A DNA stretch of 33,536 bases from a virus. Positions 1 through 25,459 of the stretch are shown here, in pieces. The translations under genes were made by a program, and so were the position numbers. The notes below the pieces were generated by a model. That model was given only the letters and a program-made list of their open reading frames with translations, was not told the origin of the DNA and made no database searches. The stretch covers positions 1-33,536 of IMG/VR virus record IMGVR_UViG_3300042154_002051. One strand, 5' to 3'. The stretch's first letter is position 1. Each line of letters starts with the position of its first letter.

Positions 1-1115
1 CTACCATCTGCATATTTTCCATATTGGTCATATCCTTTACACAATGTTGAAAGTAATGTCCCTTTTGCAGGATAAATTATTCCCAAATTAGAATCATCAA
101 ATACTGTAACTTCTCCGGTAGGTGAGTAAACATTTACTTTAGTTTCTGTAAATGTTGAAAATGATTCTAAATTGTTTTGTATTTGTTTTTGTAATTCTGT
201 AATTGCAAATTCTTTTGGCAATTGTTTTGTTTCAATATTCCTTCTTTTTAATATTTTAGAATTATTATCAATACAATTATTTAATATTTTTTCAATTTCC
301 GATAACATTATATTATAATCATATACATCAAAGTTATCAAATCTAATTTCAGATTGTTTTCCAAAATTAGATTCACCAACATTATAATACTTGTTAGTTA
401 AATAGTATTCTACTGATAATTTAAAATCTTCAAATATTTTTGTTCTAAAATTATCAAATTTACTTAAACCAAAATCTTTTTTTAAAACTACAAAAAAATC
501 ATTACCAAATTTAGTTTCTAAATATGAATCTATTTTAGTCAAAAATGAATTTTCAAATGCATTCAAAGAATCTAATATAGAAGTTTTATAATAAATAAAA
601 TCTTTGTTTAAACTTTTAAGATTTTTAAATTCTGTATTAGTAATTAAATTTATATTAGAATCTTTAGTTTTTAAAGGTAAAATTCTAATTTCTTCTCTAG
701 ATGGTGAAACTTCTTGTATCCAAACTCTGGTCAATTCATTATCACTACCCACCTTTCTTCTTACAAAATTTACATTAATTTTAAGAATACCATTTGTAAA
801 CCCCAATTCATTTAATAACTTTTCAACATTGATTGCAAGTTCTCTCTGCCCTTGTTTATTTGTAATATTATAAAGATAGTTTTGAATGTCACCTTTTTTA
901 ATATATGCAACATTGTTTCCTGACTTATGTGGTAATAGATTATTATTAATATCATAAACAGATACTTCCATAACATCATATTTACTATTTCCAAAATCGG
1001 ATTTATCTATTTCATTTTTAGATAATATAAATAAATCTTTATCATCAATAAACTTTCCTTCGTTTGTTGAGTTATTATTGATTGAATCAATATTTGTATA
1101 TTTTGTAATACTCAT
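1..1115 (-). CDS. Virion structural protein, partial (C-terminus beyond the left edge)
   Basis: Reading the minus strand from the ATG at 1115 (MSITKYTNIDSINNNS) gives an open frame of about 371 codons with no stop before base 1, so the gene runs off the window. It lies 13 bases downstream of the stop of the coiled-coil protein gene, at the end of the baseplate module, so it is probably another tail or baseplate part. The sequence is Asn/Lys/Ile-rich, with no signal peptide or membrane span. Around residues 105-145 there is a beta-type stretch with VNFVRRKVGSDNELTRVWIQ and EVSPSREEIRI, the kind of repeat-rich segment seen in phage fibre or adaptor proteins. I do not recognise a family. The coding call is firm; the role is inferred from position only. 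Confidence 0.8.
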   Translation of the reverse strand, partial: MSITKYTNIDSINNNSTNEGKFIDDKDLFILSKNEIDKSDFGNSKYDVMEVSVYDINNNLLPHKSGNNVAYIKKGDIQNYLYNITNKQGQRELAINVEKLLNELGFTNGILKINVNFVRRKVGSDNELTRVWIQEVSPSREEIRILPLKTKDSNINLITNTEFKNLKSLNKDFIYYKTSILDSLNAFENSFLTKIDSYLETKFGNDFFVVLKKDFGLSKFDNFRTKIFEDFKLSVEYYLTNKYYNVGESNFGKQSEIRFDNFDVYDYNIMLSEIEKILNNCIDNNSKILKRRNIETKQLPKEFAITELQKQIQNNLESFSTFTETKVNVYSPTGEVTVFDDSNLGIIYPAKGTLLSTLCKGYDQYGKYADG

Positions 1116-14080: not shown

Positions 14081-14689
14081 TTATTCTATTTTTTTGTAAG
14101 TTATACCATCGTTCGCTATATCCGATTTGATTAACTCTCTATTTTGTATAAAGTAATGTTTATTAAGTGATTTTATATTAAAAATTTTATTATTGTGTAA
14201 GTATTCAAACTCATAATCCAATGTTCTTTTCCAACCATTCTTTATAAACCAATTAAATAATTTAATTGCCGATTTGGGGTTAACGCAATAACAATCACAA
14301 TATGGTTGAAATTCGTAATTTTCTCCACCTTTTAGTATTAATACATCAAAATCGTCATTTATTAAATCTCTCCATAAGAAGTCAATCGGGTGATTTATAT
14401 GAATGTCATCTTCAAATATGAAAAATGGAACATCTTCTTTATAACATTCCAACCAGACCATCATATGAGATAAATTGCAGGATATTACCCCCCATTGATT
14501 AATATCCCATTCCCAATAATCTGCATCTTTAAATAATGAATTGATAAGTGAGTTATTTCTCAAAACACCCCTATAATCAATAGATTCAAAAATTTCAATA
14601 TCTATACCCAATTTATTTGAAATTGATTCAATATTTTTTCGTCTTATGGCCGATGATTGTCTGTTTATAGCTTTAAATTTATAACTCAT
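14081..14689 (-). CDS. Glycosyltransferase, GT25-like
   Basis: A 202-aa protein resembling GT25 (LPS beta-1,4-galactosyltransferase-type) enzymes: the N-terminal 'iN..r...Rr' with KAINRQSSAIRRKNIESISN, the GVISCNLSHMMVWLEC segment (family 'GeiacalSH...w') and the metal/sugar-binding FFIFEDDIHI (EDD 93-95). It likely transfers a hexose to a glycan acceptor. It is the last gene of the glycan operon; its start overlaps the upstream gene by 11 bases. Below it lies a stretch of about 115 bases without a gene that holds the next promoter. Acceptor and donor are unknown. Confidence 0.82.
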   Translation of the reverse strand: MSYKFKAINRQSSAIRRKNIESISNKLGIDIEIFESIDYRGVLRNNSLINSLFKDADYWEWDINQWGVISCNLSHMMVWLECYKEDVPFFIFEDDIHINHPIDFLWRDLINDDFDVLILKGGENYEFQPYCDCYCVNPKSAIKLFNWFIKNGWKRTLDYEFEYLHNNKIFNIKSLNKHYFIQNRELIKSDIANDGITYKKIE

Positions 14690-15350
14690 ATAATAATTTC
14701 CAACCTTTTTTTATTTGATTATCAAAAAATTCATACATGTTTTCTCTAAAATTATTTGGGTTGGTTTCATACAGGGAGACTTCGTCAACTCCATATTTCC
14801 ATCCTTCTAAACTACCCCATAGGTTTTTATCATTTTCTGGATGAGGTGGTACGAATGTAGGAATACCTTGTTTTTGTAGTTGATATGAAAAGTTCATGTC
14901 CTCACCACATTGAAAGTATTTTGTATTTGGTATTTCTGACCAATAATATTTTAACCACTCTTTTTTAAAGAACCAGTTGTGAACAACATAATCAACTTGA
15001 ATAGTTTCTTCATTTGGTTTACACCAACCTATTCTATTGTAATTATCTTTATAATGTGTGTTTGAATTAAATTGGTATCCACACGTACCATAAAGACCTT
15101 CTTTTATTTGAAACTCATTATAACAATTCTCTAACCATTTTATTCCAGGTATGGTATCATCATCAATAACACAAACAAAATCCGATTTAGCATTCAACGC
15201 CATAGAAAATCTTGCCCACACTCCTAAATTTTGTAATGAGTTATCACAAACTAAAATCTCATCTGGTTTTAATGTTTGGTTTCTTAAAGATATAAACTGA
15301 TTCTCAAGTAAATGAGGTCTTTTATACTTTGTTAATATTACAGTTATCAT
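14679..15350 (-). CDS. Glycosyltransferase family 2-like
   Basis: A 223-aa GT-A enzyme. MITVILTKYKRPHLLENQFI and SLRNQTLKPDEILVCDNS form the family 2 nucleotide-binding start, VCVIDDDTIPGIKWLENC has the DDD metal motif (63-65), and QCGEDMNFSYQLQKQGIPTF carries the acceptor-side ED. The likely reaction is transfer of a sugar from a nucleotide-sugar donor to a growing glycan. It overlaps its upstream partner by 29 bases and its downstream partner by 11, so translation is probably coupled. Specificity cannot be read. Confidence 0.82.
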   Translation of the reverse strand: MITVILTKYKRPHLLENQFISLRNQTLKPDEILVCDNSLQNLGVWARFSMALNAKSDFVCVIDDDTIPGIKWLENCYNEFQIKEGLYGTCGYQFNSNTHYKDNYNRIGWCKPNEETIQVDYVVHNWFFKKEWLKYYWSEIPNTKYFQCGEDMNFSYQLQKQGIPTFVPPHPENDKNLWGSLEGWKYGVDEVSLYETNPNNFRENMYEFFDNQIKKGWKLLYEL

Positions 15351-16671
15351 TTAATAAATTTAAATTTTTTGGGCCTGAAATGTCTTTGTCTTTTTGTTCT
15401 GGATGTTCCAAATGAACAATAATACCATGCAGTCTTTTAAATTTAAGGCCTTTATTAATTAATCTCATATGCCTCTCATCATCCTCTCTACCCCAACCTT
15501 CAAAATCTTCATTATTCATTCCCACATTTAAAAATTTTTCCCTATCAATAATAAAAATACCACCAACACATTTAGTACCCCAGGCCTCCCTCAAAGTATA
15601 ATCTGGTTCATTGAAACAATCGGTATATGGTAATGAGTAATCTACTTCATTCATTATTATTTCTTTTACTGCTATGTATATATTATAAGAATTTAATAAG
15701 ATAATATCAGCATCAATAACACAAATAATTTTTTTATTTGATATTTTAATACCATCATTAATACATTTGGATTGATTGTGAGGTAAGTCCTTTTTAATAA
15801 AAATATAATTAAAATCATCTATTTGAATAGTTTGATTATTTCCCTGTTCCGAAACTATAAATGTGGAATCTTTAAAATTTTTTTTATAATATTCAATTAC
15901 CCTTAGTAAATTATCTTTTCTTTTTTCGGTGTCGTATCTATATGGAAAAATAAAATCAACTTCATTCATAATACATTTCAATCTATCATCGTAGGTAAAA
16001 TTAAATGCTCTTAGATGTTGTATAATTTTACTAAATTCGGTGTTAATTTCATAATGTAACCCTGATAATAAACAAGACATAATAATAGAGTACCCTTCTT
16101 GGTCTCCAAATCTTTCATTGTTTACTAATATATCTGATTTGTGTTTTATTTCGGTAAAATTAATATAATTCTTAAAAAATTTGTTAACAATTACTTCATC
16201 AATGTTTTCAAAATTAAAAACATAAATGTCTTCCCATACCGATGTTAAATTTTCAAAATTAAAATTATATTTCTTCAATTCTTGTCTATAATATTTGTAA
16301 TTTTTTTGAGATAAAAAAATCTCCATATTTTCAGGAAAACCCCTTCTAGTAAATGTAAATCCAGTGTTAAATTCTATTTTTTTAAAATCAATAAAAAATT
16401 GTTTATTAAAAATTAAAATATCGGAATCTATGTATAATATTTTTTTGTACCCCAAATCATAGATATTTTTTACTGCATCTATTTTATGATGATATGAATG
16501 TGGTTGTGAATGGTATTCTATTACTTTAACATTTTCTACCTCATAAAAATCAGGTTTATCAGTGTATACAAATAAATCAAATTGGTTTGTGTCTATACTA
16601 TTTAATAGTATCAACGATAGTTTATGGAACTCTTCACTTCCATATGCACATGTTAAAAAGGCTGATTTCAT
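15322..16671 (-). CDS. Two-domain glycosyltransferase (GT8-like plus GT2/GT7-like)
   Basis: A 449-aa protein with two GT-A-like halves. The first (1-250) has SAFLTCAYGSEEFHKLSLIL, a Tyr-rich segment and KKILYIDSDILIFN with a DSD motif (82-84), as in nucleotide-diphospho-sugar transferases. The second (about 255-449) restarts the fold: KDNLLRVIEYYKKNF, VIDADIILLN (DAD 320-322), CVGGIFIIDREKFLNVG and FEGWGREDDERHMRLI, the WGxEDD motif of chondroitin-polymerase and beta-4-galactosyltransferase-like enzymes. Two active sites in one chain suggest two successive sugar additions or alternating polymerisation. The first half lacks the later His/Asp motif I would expect in GT8, so its activity is less certain. 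Confidence 0.78.
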   Translation of the reverse strand: MKSAFLTCAYGSEEFHKLSLILLNSIDTNQFDLFVYTDKPDFYEVENVKVIEYHSQPHSYHHKIDAVKNIYDLGYKKILYIDSDILIFNKQFFIDFKKIEFNTGFTFTRRGFPENMEIFLSQKNYKYYRQELKKYNFNFENLTSVWEDIYVFNFENIDEVIVNKFFKNYINFTEIKHKSDILVNNERFGDQEGYSIIMSCLLSGLHYEINTEFSKIIQHLRAFNFTYDDRLKCIMNEVDFIFPYRYDTEKRKDNLLRVIEYYKKNFKDSTFIVSEQGNNQTIQIDDFNYIFIKKDLPHNQSKCINDGIKISNKKIICVIDADIILLNSYNIYIAVKEIIMNEVDYSLPYTDCFNEPDYTLREAWGTKCVGGIFIIDREKFLNVGMNNEDFEGWGREDDERHMRLINKGLKFKRLHGIIVHLEHPEQKDKDISGPKNLNLLNDNCNINKV

Positions 16672-16683
16672 TATTATTGTTTA

Positions 16684-17634
16684 TTAAAATGTGTGACTAT
16701 TCCAATTATATGAACCATATGTAGATTTGATTGACTCATGCATTTGTATATCTAATTGCTTTAATAGATTAACTAACAATATTCTATAATATAAATGCCA
16801 TCTGTATCCTGATAAATGTATAATGTCTGATGACTTAAAATCATTCAATAATTCATCATAAGCTTTTTTGTTTAAATCACCATATCCTTCATTATTAGTT
16901 TTACCTCCTTTAATTAAATCTCCAAAAACAAATAAATCTTCAAATCTATTCGTTTCCAATAGATAATTTATTTGAATAAATTGTTCTAAGACTGTTGGTA
17001 AATCCTTTATTTGATTTAATTTTTCATAATTTTTTAGTAAAAATTCTTTTGTTTTTTTAAATGATAATATCAATTCATCATTATTACAACCAAATATAGA
17101 ACAATTGTATGCAGTTAGTGGATTAAAATTATCTAACATTTCATCATCTATAACCTTACAAACCTCTGAAAATATCTTTATATAGAATGCATACTGATTA
17201 TTCAGCTGATTACCATATGGATTGCATGCCGGTTCTTTAAAAGAAAATAAAATATCTTTATCAACCTTATCAAATATGATATCATTGTTTATAAAGAAAT
17301 CATGGTCTATATGAATAAATGGTTCGGTTTGTTCTGCAGCCACAAATATTTTAAACATCACATTTTTATGAGAAAATCCGGTATTTTGTTTTTCTATCAC
17401 ATCATAACAATTTGATATATCAACCAATTTATCAAAATATTCGGTACCTTTAAAAAATTTAATAATTTCTTTGTTAGTATATAAGTTTATTGATTTATAT
17501 TTAAATTTTGATTTAAATAATTTAACTGATACACATAAACAATACAAATCTATTAAATAGAAATCTCTATTACACTCCCAATCTATTTCAGGTGGTACAT
17601 ATGTGTATATTATGTTTTTATCCGATGTATCCAT
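16684..17634 (-). CDS. GT8-like glycosyltransferase-fold protein
   Basis: A 316-aa protein. LYCLCVSVKLFKSKFKYKSI and NLYTNKEIIKFF resemble the start of nucleotide-sugar transferases, and EPFIHIDHDFFINNDIIFD places a DxD-type motif (Asp110-His-Asp112) where GT8 enzymes have it. Later parts (ACNPYGNQLNNQYAFY, AYNCSIFGCNNDELI) resemble the acceptor-side segments of phage and bacterial proteins of unknown specificity. The C-terminal helix ends SSDIIHLSGYRWHLYYRI. It overlaps the UDP-sugar dehydrogenase upstream by 17 bases. Activity is inferred from motif and context. Confidence 0.68.
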   Translation of the reverse strand: MDTSDKNIIYTYVPPEIDWECNRDFYLIDLYCLCVSVKLFKSKFKYKSINLYTNKEIIKFFKGTEYFDKLVDISNCYDVIEKQNTGFSHKNVMFKIFVAAEQTEPFIHIDHDFFINNDIIFDKVDKDILFSFKEPACNPYGNQLNNQYAFYIKIFSEVCKVIDDEMLDNFNPLTAYNCSIFGCNNDELILSFKKTKEFLLKNYEKLNQIKDLPTVLEQFIQINYLLETNRFEDLFVFGDLIKGGKTNNEGYGDLNKKAYDELLNDFKSSDIIHLSGYRWHLYYRILLVNLLKQLDIQMHESIKSTYGSYNWNSHTF

Positions 17635-18772
17635 AATAATATATTTTTATATCATTGTTTTTATACTCTCTCCATACATCCAATACAATACTATTTGTTG
17701 GTAATTGAATGTTATTATATTTTCCCATGTGACCTAACAAATATATTGCCGGATACAATGTGGTATCAAATTCAACTTCTTTACCCAATTGATTAACATA
17801 ATATGAAGTTAAAATTGTAGTAGACCCTTCTAAATAGTCTACATCTGGTTTATAACTTTTACCTAAAATAACAATTGGTAAATTGTATTCATTTGATAAT
17901 TCTACCAATCGTTTTGCTATATTTTCAGCTTGGACTTCTCTAGCTCTCATTATAGCATCAAATATATCATAACCTAAGTTATATTCTCTGGCCATCCATC
18001 GTAGTGCAATATTGTCTCTTGGATGACATCCACCACCATCTCCCATTCCTGCTTTCATATAAGCAGAGCTAACAATTCTTTTTGTACTTCGTTCTAATGC
18101 ACCCGTGATAGTATCGGTATTCATATTACCATTCTTTTCAGCAACATCTTGTATCATATTTACCAATGCTACTTTTGTTGAAATAAATGTATTATAGAAT
18201 ATCTTTATAGCTTCGGCATCATCCCATGTACCAATTTCATATCTAACACCACTTGTAATAAATGTTTTATAAAACTCTATTAAAAGTTTAGCATCACCGG
18301 TATTACTACCATCTTCAGTTCCTATTATTATCATTTCAGGATTAACCATATCCCATTTTACCGTTCCCATAGCTATTAGGTATGGATTGTATATGAATCT
18401 ATAATTTTTTACCAATGGTATAAATTCTCTTCTAATGGTACCTGGTAGTACTGTTGATATTAAAACAACCAATTGTTCTTTGCTAGTATGGTTGTTAATT
18501 TCATTTAATATATCTTTTACTATTGAATAATCAAAATCCTTAGGTTCTAAATGAGATGTTGGATATCTACCATCGTAATCCTTATGATGCGGTGTTGGTA
18601 CTGCTACAAAAATTATTTGTTTATTAAAACACACATCTTTTATCGTTTTAACCATTTTAAAATTTTTAGGTACAATATTATTTACATCGTATCCTTCAAC
18701 ATAATGATGTTCGGCCATAACCTCAGAAGACTCTTTACCCAACTTGCCTACTCCTATAAATCCTATTTTCAT
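17618..18772 (-). CDS. UDP-glucose/GDP-mannose dehydrogenase family protein
   Basis: A 384-aa NAD-dependent sugar-nucleotide dehydrogenase. The N-terminus has the Rossmann GFIGVGKLG motif and IIFVAVPTPH. The middle shows VVLISTVLPGTIRREFIPLV, NPYLIAMGTVKW and the helix AEAIKIFYNTFISTKVAL. The catalytic Cys lies in GDGGGCHPRDNIALRW, equivalent to 'GfGG.C.pkD'. The C-terminal UDP-binding part has IVILGKSYKPDVDYLEGS. It would oxidise a UDP- or GDP-sugar to its uronic acid for glycan assembly. It sits among glycosyltransferase genes and overlaps both neighbours, so it probably supplies a charged sugar to them. Its residues are intact. Confidence 0.9.
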   Translation of the reverse strand: MKIGFIGVGKLGKESSEVMAEHHYVEGYDVNNIVPKNFKMVKTIKDVCFNKQIIFVAVPTPHHKDYDGRYPTSHLEPKDFDYSIVKDILNEINNHTSKEQLVVLISTVLPGTIRREFIPLVKNYRFIYNPYLIAMGTVKWDMVNPEMIIIGTEDGSNTGDAKLLIEFYKTFITSGVRYEIGTWDDAEAIKIFYNTFISTKVALVNMIQDVAEKNGNMNTDTITGALERSTKRIVSSAYMKAGMGDGGGCHPRDNIALRWMAREYNLGYDIFDAIMRAREVQAENIAKRLVELSNEYNLPIVILGKSYKPDVDYLEGSTTILTSYYVNQLGKEVEFDTTLYPAIYLLGHMGKYNNIQLPTNSIVLDVWREYKNNDIKIYYYGYIG

Positions 18773-20223
18773 ATTAATTTTTTATTAGTTATAGTTATTT
18801 GATTATTAATATCCGATGTAAGTAATTTGAATAAATTTAAAGTATCGGTATCCGATAACATATGATTAAAATTATGTATTAATACTTCTTCCATCTCTTG
18901 TGTTATTTTAAAACATTCATCTAAACTCCAACTAGATATTTTTTCTAGTATAGTAACTATTTTTTCCAATCTTTTAGAAAATTCTATCTCTTCATCATAA
19001 CTCTCATCCCACCATTTATCAAATGTTTTGAATCCCATAGATTGTAACATTTTAATAGAATTTGGATTACCAAATAAAATAAATGGCTGAGCTCCAAATA
19101 TTGGTTTATAGATTTTTTCTGAAAAGAATATAGAGTCAGTATCAATTAACGATTCGGATACTATATTAACAAACGATTCCGTATGTGCTTTTTTATTAAA
19201 TGTACCTGCTTTATTATTTTCTAAATCCGGTTCATCATAAATCGTATGTTTTGTTGAATCATAGTTTTCAAAAAAAGATACTATTCTATCTTTAGAATAT
19301 ATGTAGTCATTATCTATAAATGAACGCATTAACATGTGGTATTCAAGTGGATTACCATTATCAACTCTTCCTAATGTGGTAATTGATGTATTTTTTAATT
19401 TATCATTTGACTTAAACTCTCCAAATAAAGCAATTCTATGTAATTTTGGTACTCTATTGAAATTCAAAAAATGACGAACTTTATTAGTATTTCTATTTGA
19501 ATTTAAACAATTTTCAAACACATCTCGCATTGTTTGCTTAGTATGTGGGTTTAATTTATGGCCGTGATGAAACCAAATACTATTTCCGAAATATGAATAT
19601 GGATATATTAAGAATGAATCGGCAATAACACCATCTTTGACCAACCTATTGTATTTTTCTTTGGATATCATATTTGAAGTTATTACCACCACCGATTCTT
19701 TTGTAAGATTGTATTTTTTGCACAAACCATCTATCCATATGAAATTATCAACTCGTTGGCCGAAGAATCCTTCTGTGGGTTGTATGAATACCAATTTACA
19801 ATATCCATTATGTATAGCTTCAATCAATAAATGATTTAATTCTATTGTTTTATAATTATTAAATAAATCATTATTGTACATTATGATTGGATAAATAAAG
19901 GATTCCTTTTTAGAATAAAATTCCTCCAAAGTTCCTTTTCTAAATGTATCATAAGTGTTATCCAATATATTTTCAATATTTTGACTTGCAAATTGGAATA
20001 ACTCATGTCTAATATAACCACTATCATCCGATTTAATTGTATATGGAAACTTTATACCTAATTTTTTTTCGGTTTCTTCTAGTGGTATGGATGTTATCGT
20101 ATGCCAAGGATGTATATCATAGTTAGCTACATTTGATGTTGCATACAATGGGTTACCAGTTTCATCATAAACTAATATTTTATTATAAGCTACATTTATT
20201 TTGATTGATTTTATATTATGCAT
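18769..20223 (-). CDS. Putative glycosyltransferase with a GT10-like C-terminal donor-binding region
   Basis: A 484-aa protein. The C-terminal third carries SIFFSEKIYKPIFGAQPFIL, GNPNSIKMLQSMGFKTFDKW and DESYDEEIE, matching the pattern 'teK.ykpl...pFi..G....l..lr..GFkTF...idEsYd' seen in fucosyltransferase-like (GT10) proteins and many phage or bacterial hypothetical proteins. The N-terminal part has mixed strands and helices with no other motif. The N-terminal MHNIKSIKINVAYNKILVYD overlaps the LamG-type gene by 8 bases. A fucosyl- or related transferase role fits the operon. The N-terminal domain may bind acceptor. Moderately confident in the fold; low for substrate. Confidence 0.62.
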   Translation of the reverse strand: MHNIKSIKINVAYNKILVYDETGNPLYATSNVANYDIHPWHTITSIPLEETEKKLGIKFPYTIKSDDSGYIRHELFQFASQNIENILDNTYDTFRKGTLEEFYSKKESFIYPIIMYNNDLFNNYKTIELNHLLIEAIHNGYCKLVFIQPTEGFFGQRVDNFIWIDGLCKKYNLTKESVVVITSNMISKEKYNRLVKDGVIADSFLIYPYSYFGNSIWFHHGHKLNPHTKQTMRDVFENCLNSNRNTNKVRHFLNFNRVPKLHRIALFGEFKSNDKLKNTSITTLGRVDNGNPLEYHMLMRSFIDNDYIYSKDRIVSFFENYDSTKHTIYDEPDLENNKAGTFNKKAHTESFVNIVSESLIDTDSIFFSEKIYKPIFGAQPFILFGNPNSIKMLQSMGFKTFDKWWDESYDEEIEFSKRLEKIVTILEKISSWSLDECFKITQEMEEVLIHNFNHMLSDTDTLNLFKLLTSDINNQITITNKKLI

Positions 20224-20950
20224 TTTTTATTGTTTGTATGTATATGTGATTGTTATTACCCGTATAATCAAATATTTTAAATTTAGTAATTTTTTCAAAG
20301 TCATATAAACCCAATAGTCCGTATTTATTTGAATTTACATATTCATCATATTCGTTTAACTCTATTAAATATTTCTCTTTAATATTTTCTACTATCTCAT
20401 TTGTTAATATTTTTTCAGAAAGTATTGTGTATTTAAAATCAATATCGTATGTAGTTTCTGCATCAAATTGATTTCTACCCAATAGTATTTGTGAATTATC
20501 GTAATCATTAAAGAATTCGGCATCCACATTAATTTCAAATTTAAATTCATTATTTAAATAATATTTGATAACCGAACTATCGGATGAATATACTACCATT
20601 ATTTCATAATCCAATCCGAACTCAAAATTAAAATAAACACCAGTTCTATCTACTACATCTTTATCATTAACTTTTAATGTATAGTTTGTAAAGAATAAAT
20701 GAGAATCTACAATGTTATTTTCGGAATCCGTATATGAATGTGGGTCAAAACTTATTGAACAAACAAATGGAATTTTCCAAAATATAACAATGGGTTCATT
20801 GTTGTATGAATCTAATTTGTTTACACTAAATTTTGTATAGATTGTAAAATCATTTTTACCAAATATTTTTTTACATATTTCTCCTTTTTCCAATCCATAC
20901 ATTTTAAGAATTGGCCATAGAACCAAATATTCATTTCTATTTGTTATCAT
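20216..20950 (-). CDS. LamG/concanavalin-like lectin-fold protein
   Basis: A 244-aa protein with a LamG-type layout: FTIYTKFSVNKLDSYNNEPI, a beta-rich core, then DYEIMVVYSSDSSVIKYYLN, NNEFKFEIN, QILLGRNQFDAETTYDIDFK, an inter-strand helix (LTNEIVENIKEKYLIEL) and LYDFEKITKFKIFDYTGNN, the closing 'W.f.eg.g..v.D.sGn..hg' form of these jelly rolls. Such domains bind glycans or fold around them. It sits between the radical SAM gene and the GT10-like gene, overlapping each by 4-8 bases. It has no signal peptide, so it probably acts in the cytoplasm with the transferases, perhaps as a substrate-binding partner or as the glycosylated target. Confidence 0.65.
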   Translation of the reverse strand: MITNRNEYLVLWPILKMYGLEKGEICKKIFGKNDFTIYTKFSVNKLDSYNNEPIVIFWKIPFVCSISFDPHSYTDSENNIVDSHLFFTNYTLKVNDKDVVDRTGVYFNFEFGLDYEIMVVYSSDSSVIKYYLNNEFKFEINVDAEFFNDYDNSQILLGRNQFDAETTYDIDFKYTILSEKILTNEIVENIKEKYLIELNEYDEYVNSNKYGLLGLYDFEKITKFKIFDYTGNNNHIYIQTIKNA

Positions 20951-22332
20951 ATTTTACTTTTTATTTTATGGTAAAATTCTTCCATTTCTGGAAATGTTTT
21001 TAAAAAATTAGTGCCTCTTCTTAAATCGTGTTCATCTACGAATTTTATAAAATCTATTCTATTTTGATTTAAATTATCATCCTCCGACAATGACCAATCG
21101 TATATTCTTTTAATTTTTTGAACTTCTATATCATTAAATCCCATATTATCTCCATCGTAGTTTTCAACCGAATTATAGACTACAAACTCTGCTTGTTTTC
21201 TTATTAGTTCTTTGTGTTCTAAATCCAATATCTTAACTGTTTGATGTGGTGGGTATCTTAAATACGATGCATCCACCGGTGCAGTTGTTAACCAATATCT
21301 ATCGGGATTCTTATGTTCAATTCTTAAATCTAATACATTTTTTAAAAATGTTCTAAATGAAAAAACACTTAATGCATTATATGTTGTCATAAATACAACA
21401 GTAACTTTTGGAACTTTTTCTAAAATTTTATTTACATTATCCCAGAATCTATTAAATTCTAAACCATGCCTAATATATTCTGCCTGTGCACCCCAACCAT
21501 CCAATGATGTATATATTATCATTTCATTCACCAAACCTTTATCTGTGATTATTTGTAATTTTTCTATCAATTTGTTTATTAAAGAATCAGGTACACCCAA
21601 ATTTGAATTTATTGATAGGTTTAATTTTTTATTTGGTAATGGGTGTTGTATAATATAATCCAATACATCCCAAGTATCTTTTGATAAAAGTGGTTCACCT
21701 CCTGTAATTCTAAATGTGTGCAAGTCTTTGTATAAATCAGGCCACCATTCCCAAAAGGCTTTTACATATGGATTGTGTTCCGAATGTTTATATGGCATTT
21801 TACCTTCGGATTTAATCCAATCTAATTGGCCGAATTCGGTTGATGTTGGATATTTTCCATATCTTTCTATTTCCTCCATCCATTGTGATGAAAACATCGG
21901 GCCACAATATGAACATTTAAAATTACAAGTATTACTAAAAGATACTTCTACATACTTTGGATTATAATTTTCTCTATGGTCTATATTTTTAATTTCATTA
22001 AAATGTTCCCAAGACCAGGGTTCTTCTGATTTAAATATTCTATCGGATAACATATTGGAGTTATCTTCTACATTCCAACAATAATTACATTCACTAGGAC
22101 GTTTACCATTTAACATTTCCTTCCTAGCTCTTTTTTTCTCTTGTGTGTTATGTAATGCCGTTGGGTTTCTATTTAATTCCGTTAATGGTATTTTATGTGG
22201 AGATGGGTGATGGCAACTATGTGTTAGGCCATTATGTAAATGCATTGTAACCTGTGTCCATTTTGCCAAACAAAACCCACAACCTACTTTATTTAATTCT
22301 TCCTTAACTTCTTCTAATTTGTTTTTACTCAT
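20947..22332 (-). CDS. Radical SAM protein with N-terminal extra Cys cluster (twitch-type)
   Basis: A 461-aa radical SAM enzyme. The [4Fe-4S] motif is Cys136-x3-Cys140-x2-Cys143 (SFSNTCNFKCSYCGP), followed by a GGEPL motif at 211-215 (TFRITGGEPLLSKDTWD) and the expected strand NLSINSN near residue 240. Upstream of this core are five Cys (18, 21, 40, 82, 85; CGFC, HSCHH, ECNYC), which could hold a second iron-sulfur cluster as in SPASM/twitch enzymes, but placed before the core. It would make a 5'-deoxyadenosyl radical to modify a peptide or sugar. It overlaps neighbours by 4 bases each. Substrate unknown; the glycan-operon context points to a sugar or a glycosylated protein. Confidence 0.85.
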   Translation of the reverse strand: MSKNKLEEVKEELNKVGCGFCLAKWTQVTMHLHNGLTHSCHHPSPHKIPLTELNRNPTALHNTQEKKRARKEMLNGKRPSECNYCWNVEDNSNMLSDRIFKSEEPWSWEHFNEIKNIDHRENYNPKYVEVSFSNTCNFKCSYCGPMFSSQWMEEIERYGKYPTSTEFGQLDWIKSEGKMPYKHSEHNPYVKAFWEWWPDLYKDLHTFRITGGEPLLSKDTWDVLDYIIQHPLPNKKLNLSINSNLGVPDSLINKLIEKLQIITDKGLVNEMIIYTSLDGWGAQAEYIRHGLEFNRFWDNVNKILEKVPKVTVVFMTTYNALSVFSFRTFLKNVLDLRIEHKNPDRYWLTTAPVDASYLRYPPHQTVKILDLEHKELIRKQAEFVVYNSVENYDGDNMGFNDIEVQKIKRIYDWSLSEDDNLNQNRIDFIKFVDEHDLRRGTNFLKTFPEMEEFYHKIKSKI

Positions 22333-23684
22333 ATTCCAACATTTATTTGTAATGTATTGTTTTCTTTAATTTTACTATTTTCTACAAAATATAAATCACT
22401 CAATCCATCTTTTTGAGATAACATTGGGTCGGTGGATACTTCATTTGAAAATCTCAATTGATTCCACCTTGTTTCTTGGTGTTTCCATTTATTATTAACA
22501 AATCCATTATTTTCGTGATATAATGAAATAAATTTGGAATTTCTTCTATATGGTATTTTAACTATTTTATAAGGTGATATTTTTTTATTTACAATTTCAC
22601 AATTAATAATTTGGCCATCGTTTTTATTTCCTGATAAATCTTTTAATTTGTTTCTTTCTATTTCGTTGGTATTAAAGTGTACAACAGAATCTTTTATTTC
22701 TTTGTAATCCATTTCTATGATGTTTTTAATATCATCTTCATTCATTACTTTATTAAATACCATAAACGAATCAATATAACCCTTAAAATAATTTTCATCA
22801 CCCTTACGATGTGGAGACCCCATACCTAAATAAAAATATGGTTCTTTATTATAATTGTAAAGATTATCATATTCAATGGTATCTACCAAATTTGCATCTT
22901 GATAAAAATTTATTTTTTTGTTTTTACTATCAATTGTTATTGTTATAGTTGTTTTATAATTTGTTTTCATTTCGGAAGTCAAATACAATATTTCTTTATT
23001 TTTATTAAATAATAGAAAATTATATCTTTTGAATGAATTATATGATATACTTACATCATATCCTGGAATACTAAAAACCGAAAATGTATCACTATCTTTT
23101 TTATGATTATAAACTATATCATCGGGAAAAAAAGAAACTGATATAGTTAAATCTTTTGTAAAATCAATTTTATTTTTTACTTTTACATATGAGTTTATTC
23201 CATTAAATTTTAAAGAAGTTTTTGCAATTGGACTATTATATAATTTTAATCTATCCAATTTAATATCCTTTCTTTTACATCTTAATAACAAATCATCATC
23301 TTCAAATCCCCAACCCCAATATTTGTTAGAGTATCCATTTATTTTTTCAAAAGCTTTAGTGGGAAACAAAGTTACACCACCAAAATATTCATCAAATGTT
23401 TTTTCTGCCAAATGAATTGGTATATCAGAATATGAATAATCAACATCAATTGGTATCATATCTACATCGTGAAAAACAACATAGTCACATTTTAATTTTT
23501 TAGCATACTTAAAACCTATATTCAACAAAGTTCCTCTATTGAATAGTTTATCGTTATTTTGTTCAACTATTATAATTCTATAATCAATTTTGGTATTATC
23601 TAAATATTTTTGAATCTCTTGTTTAAATAACATTAGTTGTAAACTCCGATTTCTATATGGTACTATAATTCCCAACCTATGCAT
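22329..23684 (-). CDS. Beta-4-galactosyltransferase (GT7)-like enzyme with an inserted LamG domain
   Basis: A 451-aa protein. Residues 1-150 show every landmark of beta-4-galactosyltransferases: VPYRNR (8-13), LFNRGTLLNIGFKYAKK (48-), FHDVDMIP (71-78; DVD metal motif), YFGGVTLFPTKAFEKINGYS and NKYWGWGFEDDDLLLRC (121-136). A complete LamG domain then follows, opening with SLKFNGINSYVKVKNKIDF (157) and closing with YFKGYIDSFMVFNKVMNEDD; its sandwich ends near residue 360 at DLSGNKNDG. The last 80 residues (KHQETRWNQLRFSN, KDGLSDLYFV, INVGI) look like the GT7 C-terminal tail. So LamG appears inserted inside the transferase. It overlaps the genes on both sides by 4-8 bases. Confidence 0.82.
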   Translation of the reverse strand: MHRLGIIVPYRNRSLQLMLFKQEIQKYLDNTKIDYRIIIVEQNNDKLFNRGTLLNIGFKYAKKLKCDYVVFHDVDMIPIDVDYSYSDIPIHLAEKTFDEYFGGVTLFPTKAFEKINGYSNKYWGWGFEDDDLLLRCKRKDIKLDRLKLYNSPIAKTSLKFNGINSYVKVKNKIDFTKDLTISVSFFPDDIVYNHKKDSDTFSVFSIPGYDVSISYNSFKRYNFLLFNKNKEILYLTSEMKTNYKTTITITIDSKNKKINFYQDANLVDTIEYDNLYNYNKEPYFYLGMGSPHRKGDENYFKGYIDSFMVFNKVMNEDDIKNIIEMDYKEIKDSVVHFNTNEIERNKLKDLSGNKNDGQIINCEIVNKKISPYKIVKIPYRRNSKFISLYHENNGFVNNKWKHQETRWNQLRFSNEVSTDPMLSQKDGLSDLYFVENSKIKENNTLQINVGI

Positions 23685-23853
23685 CTTCCGGCTTTATTGT
23701 TTTATGCCACTCATGTAGATAAAATTGTATTCTATCACTCCAATCTTGTTTATCTATATCTTCAAACCAAATTGTAAGTGCATCTAATGAATTTGCAATT
23801 TTCTCCAAAGCTTTAACTTTTTTTTCTTCTAATTTTAATTCTTGTTCTGTCAT
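23677..23853 (-). CDS. Small helical protein in the glycan operon (58 aa)
   Basis: A 58-aa protein from the ATG at 23853: MTEQELKLEEKKVKALEKIA, NSLDALTIWFEDIDKQ, then DRIQFYLHEWHKTIKPEDA. A longer frame from 23889 is open but would overlap the upstream gene by 37 bases, whereas TAATG at 23855-23851 gives textbook translational coupling; I choose that start. It is helical with no enzyme motif. Its position between two transferase genes suggests a partner or scaffold. Function unknown. Confidence 0.68.
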   Translation of the reverse strand: MTEQELKLEEKKVKALEKIANSLDALTIWFEDIDKQDWSDRIQFYLHEWHKTIKPEDA

Positions 23854-24701
23854 TATATTGATATTATTTTGTTTAATAATTCTTTCCATTGTGAATAACC
23901 ACCATAATCACCACCTATATTCTCAAATCCATATCTTGTATCGTTTAAGTCAAATTTAAATCCAATCTTTCTTAATTCGGTATACATTTGACGATATTCA
24001 TGTGAGTACGCATATTCTTTGTTTATACTTGCAACATCTCTAATTCTATCTATACAGGTACTATCCCATTTAAAATGATGAACTTGTACATTGTATTTGT
24101 TTATAGGTGCAATTAGAGGATGTGACCAACCCTGCCATCTCCAAGTACTATGGTCGTCTATCTTTGCATAATGTTGTCCTGGTAAGAGTTCTACACTACC
24201 TTTCATTATACAAATCTTATTTGGGTTTGCTCCACTTAAAGGATGTCTAAAGAAACCTGCAATTGGAAATTGTTGAAATATATTAACTCCATCCAATAGT
24301 TCACTAAAACCACCATCTTCTCCTATTCTATCTATGAATCCACCTCTAACCATTTGCCAACCATTCCACTCACAATCTGAAATTATTTTGTTTAAGTCTT
24401 GTGAATATATGTGAAACTCATCGTCATCGGAAACTACCCACCAATCATTAGGAAATAATTTTTTAGTATCATTATATAGTTTAGTTACCTTTTCCCAATT
24501 ATACTTTTGACTACGATATCTTTTAACTATTATTGCAGTTGGAAATTCATCTACTATCTCTTTAACCTTATCATATGTACTTTCACCATCCCACTCATAT
24601 ACCACCACAAACATTTCGTCTACTACATTCTTATAATGATTTAACATATGTCTTAAAGTATTGGTTCTACTACCTGTAACTGTAACTAATCTTAATTTCA
24701 T
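23853..24701 (-). CDS. GT-A glycosyltransferase (GT2/GT92-like)
   Basis: A 282-aa protein. The start MKLRLVTVTGSRTNTLRHML and NHYKNVVDEMFVVVYEWDGE match 'nE..ylreWl.yh...ld.iyiyD.' family 92/2-type sequences. NDWWVVSDDDEFHIYSQDLN carries the DDDE metal motif (92-95). Later segments SGANPNKICIMKGSVELLPG and KYNVQVHHFKWDSTCIDRIR give the acceptor-side His and Trp. It should transfer a sugar to a glycan. It overlaps the methyltransferase upstream by 4 bases and shares a TAATG junction downstream. Confidence 0.8.
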   Translation of the reverse strand: MKLRLVTVTGSRTNTLRHMLNHYKNVVDEMFVVVYEWDGESTYDKVKEIVDEFPTAIIVKRYRSQKYNWEKVTKLYNDTKKLFPNDWWVVSDDDEFHIYSQDLNKIISDCEWNGWQMVRGGFIDRIGEDGGFSELLDGVNIFQQFPIAGFFRHPLSGANPNKICIMKGSVELLPGQHYAKIDDHSTWRWQGWSHPLIAPINKYNVQVHHFKWDSTCIDRIRDVASINKEYAYSHEYRQMYTELRKIGFKFDLNDTRYGFENIGGDYGGYSQWKELLNKIISI

Positions 24702-25423
24702 TTTTTTCTTATTAGGGTTAGGCCTGTTGAGGCGGGTTTGTTTTTAATAATTCCAAAGTTAAACATATTAAATATTTCAAATTTATCTCTATCTATTTCG
24801 TTTACTAATTGTGCAGGGCCAGTCCAATCAATGTGAAATGGTTTAGCTTCTTCGGTTACTATAAAATGATTTTCGTAATTTGTATCTGTATCGTGAATTG
24901 ATATAATACCATTTGGAGACATTATAGTAGAATATAGTTCAAAGTCTTCTTTTACATTTTCGTAGGAATGACCTGCATCAATGTGTAGGTAATCAATCTT
25001 AATGTCCTGCAATACAAAGAAATTATGAAATGCATTAGATGTAGTCTCTTTTATAAATCTTGGTGAAAAATTAGAACGAAAGTAACTCATATCATCACTC
25101 CAATTAACTTCACCACCTATACCATTCATTGCATCTACTATATATGTTACTCCTATATCACCCCAATTTAAATCATCATTACCTTCAAATATCTTTTGAC
25201 TATGTAAGTCTTTACGAGCTTGGGTCATAATACGCGGGATGAATCCACCACCACTACCTAAACAAACACATACCTTTGACCTCATATATTGAATTAGGGA
25301 GTAGATAACCAAACCATCTCCTAAATGTAAGTCAGTTGCACCATGTGACCAACGATATGGAACTACACCCTCTTTTCCATTATTTGTTATACAATTCTTT
25401 ATGAAATCTATATTTGTTATCAT
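24698..25423 (-). CDS. Class I SAM-dependent methyltransferase (Methyltransf_24-like)
   Basis: About 241 aa. The SAM-binding loop is KVCVCLGSGGGFIPRIM (51-67; the LGSGGG motif I), and DYLHIDAGHSYENVKEDFEL with MSPNGIISIHDTD is the diagnostic Methyltransf_24 segment (family 'ihiDg.H.y..v..Dl...w..l.pGG.l..hD'). The open frame reaches 25459 with a TTG codon, but that would sit exactly on the promoter -35, so the ATG at 25423 (MITNIDFIKN) is the better start. That ATG lies eight bases below the -10 element, so the transcript may be nearly leaderless. As the first gene of the 11-kb operon, it likely O- or N-methylates a sugar. Confidence 0.82.
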   Translation of the reverse strand: MITNIDFIKNCITNNGKEGVVPYRWSHGATDLHLGDGLVIYSLIQYMRSKVCVCLGSGGGFIPRIMTQARKDLHSQKIFEGNDDLNWGDIGVTYIVDAMNGIGGEVNWSDDMSYFRSNFSPRFIKETTSNAFHNFFVLQDIKIDYLHIDAGHSYENVKEDFELYSTIMSPNGIISIHDTDTNYENHFIVTEEAKPFHIDWTGPAQLVNEIDRDKFEIFNMFNFGIIKNKPASTGLTLIRKK

Positions 25424-25430
25424 ATCATTG

Positions 25431-25459
25431 AATATACGAATAATATCCGATAATACCAA
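25431..25459 (-). promoter_or_regulatory. Promoter TTGGTA-N17-TATATT for the glycan operon
   Basis: TTGGTA (25459-25454), 17 bases, TATATT (25436-25431) on the minus strand. The predicted start falls at about 25424, at the methyltransferase ATG. It is the only promoter I can see for the 11 genes down to 14081, and a G-run tract (25473-25489) lies just upstream. Confidence 0.78.

Follow-up and report, generated by a model that had tools for sequence, protein, structure and literature searches.

A GT7 glycosyltransferase with a LamG domain inserted in its predicted GT-A fold, encoded in a conserved phage glycan cassette

INTRODUCTION

The closest described systems to the protein reported here are the β-1,4-galactosyltransferases of CAZy family GT7. 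In human B4GALT1, the acceptor lid (residues 338 to 365) is the moving part of the enzyme: it contributes Met340 and His343 as Mn-site residues, creates the acceptor site, and, on closing, brings in a helix (residues 354 to 361) that contacts the acceptor (PMC6198961). Acceptor contacts are also made by Trp310, Asp314, Asp315, and Tyr285, the last of which reportedly determines the choice of donor (PMC6198961). For GT-A enzymes, loop expansion has been proposed as a general rule for acceptor specificity (PMC7185993). In other families, the action of a GT-A enzyme is tuned by a lectin domain, as in the polypeptide GalNAc-transferases (GT27; PMC4432651) and in MGAT4A (GT54; PMC9296478). Jumbo phages, for their part, are known to carry polysaccharide-modifying gene clusters and also LamG-bearing virion proteins (PMC7824862).

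Here we analyze a stretch of viral DNA of 33,536 nucleotides (IMG/VR record IMGVR_UViG_3300042154_002051; hereafter, the window), in which an earlier note, made from the sequence alone, had singled out a galactosyltransferase gene interrupted by a LamG domain. The feature is real, and below we describe its architecture, its family, its gene neighborhood, and the roles that the inserted domain may play.

RESULTS AND DISCUSSION

Domain organization of the GT7-LamG protein

The open reading frame runs from an ATG start to a stop codon and encodes 451 amino acids (aa), which resolve into an enzyme in two parts and an intervening domain.

22329..23684, minus strand: GT7-LamG gene, a split GT-A glycosyltransferase with an inserted LamG domain (open reading frame, Pfam, structure, and full-length homologs)
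23226..23684, minus strand: N-terminal GT7 part, residues 1 to 153 (Pfam Glyco_transf_7N, PF13733, residues 2 to 85, 74.7 bits versus a curated cutoff of 27; Glyco_transf_7C, PF02709, residues 97 to 148, 67.1 bits versus a curated cutoff of 23; conserved residues)
22563..23225, minus strand: inserted LamG/pentraxin-fold domain, residues 154 to 374 (Pfam Laminin_G_3, PF13385, residues 162 to 320, 43.4 bits versus a cutoff of 27.6; VIA-align match of residues 154..374 to 4dqa, Z of 21.6)
22332..22562, minus strand: C-terminal GT7 part, residues 375 to 451 (structure alignment and LamG-excised alignments; lid function from PMC6198961)

The N-terminal part carries the DxD motif (D73 and D75), Tyr100, Trp125, and E128 to D131, and the C-terminal part comprises, in this order, the acceptor lid with an invariant H390 and then DGL and the terminal strands. 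The last 77 residues have no match in Pfam and resemble the C terminus of the B4GALTs. All of the GT7 motifs listed in the earlier note are present (VPYRNR, residues 8 to 13; FNRGTLLNIGF, 48 to 58; FHDVDMIP, 71 to 78; WGWGFEDDD, 123 to 131), and after them, in the order given there, come SLKFNGINSYVKV, DLSGNKNDG, DGLSDLYF, and INVGI. The full LamG domain that the note placed behind the GT7 landmarks is likewise borne out by the Laminin_G_3 score, which lies far above the cutoff, and by a separate fold match. By every available sequence and predicted-structure test, the protein belongs to GT7: both Pfam domains pass, the predicted model matches the GT-A fold of the B4GALT type, and the catalytic set (DxD, the Trp of the Trp loop, ED(D)D, and the metal-ligand His of the lid) is complete. 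The insert qualifies as a LamG domain by its profile match and by the concanavalin-like sandwich fold of residues 154..374 in the predicted model.

Predicted structure of the split enzyme

An AlphaFold2 model of the 451-aa protein, built from a shallow family alignment of 22 sequences, has a mean pLDDT of 86 and a pTM of 0.81, the lid region being less confident (pLDDT of ~64 for residues 391 to 400). In this model, residues 1 to 153 and ~375 to 451 fold as a single GT-A domain. Comparison with the PDB by means of VIA-align 2 aligned ~200 residues of B4GALT1 and B4GALT7 chains across model positions 1..451 (for B4GALT1 1tvy_A, 202 residues spanning 1..451, Z of 25.4, 1.8 Å). Residues 154 to 374 form a separate LamG/pentraxin globule, which matches 4dqa, a putative carbohydrate-binding protein (203 residues, 2.5 Å), as well as the LamG domain of PAPP-A and pentraxins. 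An arrangement in which the C-terminal tail packs with the LamG domain is ruled out by the structure alignment together with the LamG-excised profile alignments.

These results agree with what had been proposed from the sequence. The two ends of the protein form one GT-A fold in the predicted model with the LamG domain as a separate globule, and the C-terminal segment belongs to the GT part, as judged from the alignment of B4GALT1 and B4GALT7 from model position 1 to 451 and from the LamG-excised profile. The predicted structure, the LamG-free relatives, and conservation in a large family concur in placing the lectin within the enzyme rather than appended to it.

Family, tandem paralogs, and host virus

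Two scans of IMG/VR yielded 26 and 80 partly overlapping loci, the second set being 80 of 421 stretches that encode relatives. Nearly all of the loci read match the query over its whole length (34 to 55% identity), and the ~90 contigs read keep the whole GT7-LamG architecture. Joining of two genes by a frameshift, which the earlier note had named as grounds for refutation, or by misassembly is for all practical purposes excluded by full-length homologs free of internal stops in many independent contigs, and the predicted fold is consistent with this.

Directly downstream of the GT7-LamG gene (copy A), nearly all loci with enough sequence have a second one (copy B), which is ~32% identical to the first, also has the GT7N, GT7C, and Laminin_G_3 domains in Pfam, and reads WDWGMEDDD in the Trp loop against WGWGFEDDD in copy A. 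Both genes are found in 15 of 15 large contigs (169 to 336 kb), and 11 of the 15 also encode the gp25 baseplate protein, in the orientation of GT7-LamG. The window is without the second copy, and the stop of its GT7-LamG gene overlaps the start of a radical SAM gene (22329 to 22332); so clean a stop/start overlap looks like a precise deletion of the paralog. A third, more divergent copy occurs in two loci (L024, 3110 to 4600; L025, 3168 to 4649) and reads WGSGYEDYD or WGVGYEDYD. This motif has no equivalent of the Trp with which B4GALT1 touches both donor and acceptor, and the activity of this copy is possibly altered or lost. A tree of the LamG domains is consistent with one insertion event that preceded the duplication into A and B and falls short of proving it, because LamG domains of autotransporter-like SAR11 proteins fall weakly between A and B/C.

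The window encodes gp25, and in tblastn searches of deposited phages, its baseplate wedge protein is closest to those of Microcystis phage Mel-JY01, an uncultured 484-kb phage, and Flavobacterium phage immuto; the window is therefore a fragment of a contractile-tailed phage. When 50,697 phage records were searched with tblastn, nothing matched the window protein, the second paralog, the distant homolog from L024, a LamG-free GT7, or the radical SAM protein. In the same search, the baseplate query, which served as a control, gave matches, and an Hsp20 query gave none; the negative result thus means that deposited phages contain no close relative, and not that GT7 is absent from them. A 23-kb contig assigned to a Pelagibacterales metagenome-assembled genome (MAG) (L028; accession no. 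VHCC01000006.1) also has the cassette, complete with its two GT7-LamG genes; it is probably a phage contig and offers a weak hint of the host. A LamG-free GT7 gene of ~260 aa is present in a genome of the same order (L105, 2022 to 2801) and in three others of that order, and the phage enzyme may have been derived from such a cellular gene. Two further loci of the SAR11 order (L104 and L106), which had LamG matches only, appear to encode surface proteins of the autotransporter type that have no relation to the enzyme.

Position of the insert and the catalytic residues

The site of insertion can be read against LamG-free bacterial GT7s, namely, that of L105, whose genome is of the same order as the Pelagibacterales (SAR11) MAG, and those of a gammaproteobacterial (L031), a Desulfuromonadales (L030), and an Elusimicrobia (L029) MAG. 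Plain MAFFT alignment of inserted and LamG-free proteins misplaces the tail across the insert, so that LamG-excised sequences are needed. A family profile with residues 154 to 372 removed matches the LamG-free GT7 of L031 in one stretch, over positions 2 to 241 of 243. The L105 protein has YWGWGYEDTDLKKRIDVNNIEIKYRDGFFSPLLHDNNGF in the place where the window protein has YWGWGFEDDDLLLRCKRKDIKLDRLKLYNSPIA and, beyond the LamG domain, IPYRRNSKFISLYHENNGF; the SAR11 enzyme has LLHDNNGF at the place of the LYHENNGF that follows the LamG domain in the window. This alignment places the insert between the EDDD motif (residues 128 to 131) and the invariant H390, its end lying ~16 residues before H390. 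By homology, H390 corresponds to His343, the Mn ligand found at the base of the acceptor lid in B4GALT1; this supports the proposal, already made in the earlier note, that the insert adjoins the acceptor site.

The residues around that site are also retained. W125, D129, D130, and Y100 match Trp310, Asp314, Asp315, and Tyr285 of B4GALT1 and are conserved in the family, D130 less strictly so, as 11 of the 55 proteins of copy A have Thr there. For each of D73, D75, Y100, W125, E128, D129, D131, and H390, there is at most one exception among the proteins compared (55 of copy A and 44 of copy B). The retention of this intact set in both paralogs argues for an active metal-dependent transferase, and the reading that we favor, with about an even chance of being correct, is that of an active GT7 enzyme whose LamG domain would tether the acceptor glycan or glycoprotein.

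Alternatively, the LamG domain might regulate the lid, altering its opening and closing or the choice of acceptor without touching the acceptor itself, much as alpha-lactalbumin re-tunes B4GALT1. The insert does run directly into the lid that holds H390, and the homologous lid is the part of B4GALT1 that moves (PMC6198961); however, a lectin fold of 220 residues is large for such a role, and we regard this reading as improbable. Still less probable, to the point of being a marginal consideration, is that the domain is a neutral passenger at a surface loop or that the proteins are inactive. Such a view could appeal to the existence of LamG-free GT7s, which also counts against a need for a LamG tether, and to the lower conservation of the LamG domain (median identity within copy A of 45%, versus 59% for the GT part). 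Yet, the domain is kept in the ~90 viral contigs read and in both paralogs, the catalytic set is intact, and comparison of pairwise distances (r of 0.89; as high in 0 of 500 permutations) shows the GT and LamG parts diverging in step, as expected of jointly inherited sequences.

A glycan cassette around the gene

The GT7-LamG gene and its neighbors in the window form a sugar cassette, all on one strand.

20947..22332, minus strand: radical SAM gene, directly downstream, with a 4-base overlap (Pfam PF04055; homolog in 79 fetched loci)
20216..20950, minus strand: stand-alone LamG-fold protein of 244 aa, two genes downstream (hhalign and model)
23853..24701, minus strand: GT2-like glycosyltransferase, upstream (weak PF13704 match below the cutoff; homolog in 86 loci)
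24698..25459, minus strand: methyltransferase (Methyltransf_24), upstream (Pfam; homolog in 83 loci)
14081..18772, minus strand: rest of the sugar cassette (Pfam), with a UDP-Glc/GDP-Man dehydrogenase, DUF6734, a glycosyltransferase with a C-terminal Glyco_transf_7C domain, GT2, and GT25

The order is mostly kept across loci: the methyltransferase, the glycosyltransferase, one or more GT7-LamG genes, the radical SAM gene, and then, often, the stand-alone LamG protein. The last of these has no match in Pfam; it aligns with the inserted LamG domain in hhalign (E = 1.1e-7), and its model (pLDDT of 71) matches the LamG domain of PAPP-A with a Z of 14.6. Within the rest of the cassette, positions 15322 to 16671 of the window encode a 449-aa protein that has Glyco_transf_7C only near its C terminus (residues 363 to 423) and apparently consists of two tandem GT domains. 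In some loci (L072 to L074), the radical SAM protein itself has two N-terminal LamG domains; such proteins of ~930 aa occupy the same position in the cassette in L072 (7849 to 10650) and also in L049 (7815 to 10637). Finally, a single frame of 914 aa in L036 (4175 to 6919) joins a GT7-LamG paralog to the radical SAM protein, possibly through a stop codon lost in assembly.

This recurrence of LamG on different types of enzyme within the same cassette brings up a serious, if rather unlikely, rival to the acceptor tether: the domain may be a protein-protein docking module that does not read sugars, the LamG-bearing proteins of the cassette, from GT7-LamG copies A and B to radical SAM-LamG-LamG and the stand-alone LamG protein, forming a complex or docking on one virion protein. 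The fusion of GT7-LamG to the radical SAM protein in L036 fits with this, and the best matches to solved structures include domains of PAPP-A and of pentraxins, both of which take part in protein assemblies. On the other hand, the inserted and the stand-alone/radical SAM LamG domains are placed apart from each other in the LamG tree, although support for this is modest, and so are not obviously of one type; moreover, docking would not need an insertion at the acceptor lid rather than at a terminus.

Proposed function

In the acceptor-tethering reading, the GT7-LamG protein would be a metal-dependent inverting glycosyltransferase of the β-1,4-galactosyltransferase kind. The invariant Y100, at the position of the donor-specificity residue Tyr285 of B4GALT1, points to UDP-galactose or a similar UDP-sugar as the donor. 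The LamG domain would bind the acceptor chain or a carrier glycoprotein and present the acceptor to the lid, which may raise specificity or processivity. We infer this role from where the insert lies, from the repeated appearance of LamG within the cassette, and from the precedent of lectin-tuned glycosyltransferases such as MGAT4A. The selection of a long glycan acceptor, suggested when the gene was noticed, is plausible on the same analogy. Positions of the LamG domain that are at least 85% conserved across both paralogs are mostly fold residues, including F160, N161, G162, G287, and G302, and no common sugar site was found among them; LamG domains bind proteins too. The same carrier may also be acted on by the tandem paralog, the stand-alone LamG protein, and the radical SAM enzyme. 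Decoration of the virion would be the most likely use of the product, as favored by the co-orientation of GT7-LamG with virion genes in the window; decoration of the host surface is less likely.

A broader and rather doubtful extension is a phage glycan assembly line in which LamG serves as a common address tag that gathers the enzymes on one carrier and orders consecutive modifications. It draws on the occurrence of LamG at the lid of two tandem GT7s, in a radical SAM fusion, and as a stand-alone protein.

Comparison with known systems

The phage protein shares with B4GALT1 and B4GALT7 the GT-A fold, the DVD and WGWGxEDDD motifs, the lid histidine, and the C-terminal DGL and terminal strands (Z of ~25). 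It differs from them in being a phage protein with a LamG insertion, whereas the B4GALTs are animal Golgi enzymes that lack one. The LamG-free bacterial GT7s (L105 of the SAR11 order, L031, L030, and L029) have the same GT7 core and lid; unlike the phage enzyme, they join the strand straight to the lid with no LamG domain. Nor is the protein of the GALNT or MGAT4A type, as its GT family and lectin fold are different: the lectins of those enzymes are C-terminal and of the ricin B type or CBM32-like, whereas the phage lectin has the LamG/pentraxin fold and lies inside the GT-A fold. In PGAP4, the GT-A fold is also split by an insertion, but this is a pair of transmembrane helices, in an enzyme of a different family (PMC5785973). 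The Laminin_G_3 family has been reported on tail fibers and other virion proteins of jumbo phages, and not in a glycosyltransferase (PMC7824862). The insertion may be viewed as GT-A loop expansion taken to an extreme.

No earlier description of a GT7-LamG protein was found in the open-access literature; what is new is the inline LamG domain inside a GT7 enzyme, the GT7 family itself being already known. The protein marks a conserved phage glycan cassette, and the large phage family, with its tandem copies, provides a system for asking how an insert ahead of the lid alters acceptor choice. In the lectin-assisted glycosyltransferases for which we found a description, the lectin is terminal; one within the fold and near the lid would represent a different coupling of recognition to transfer.
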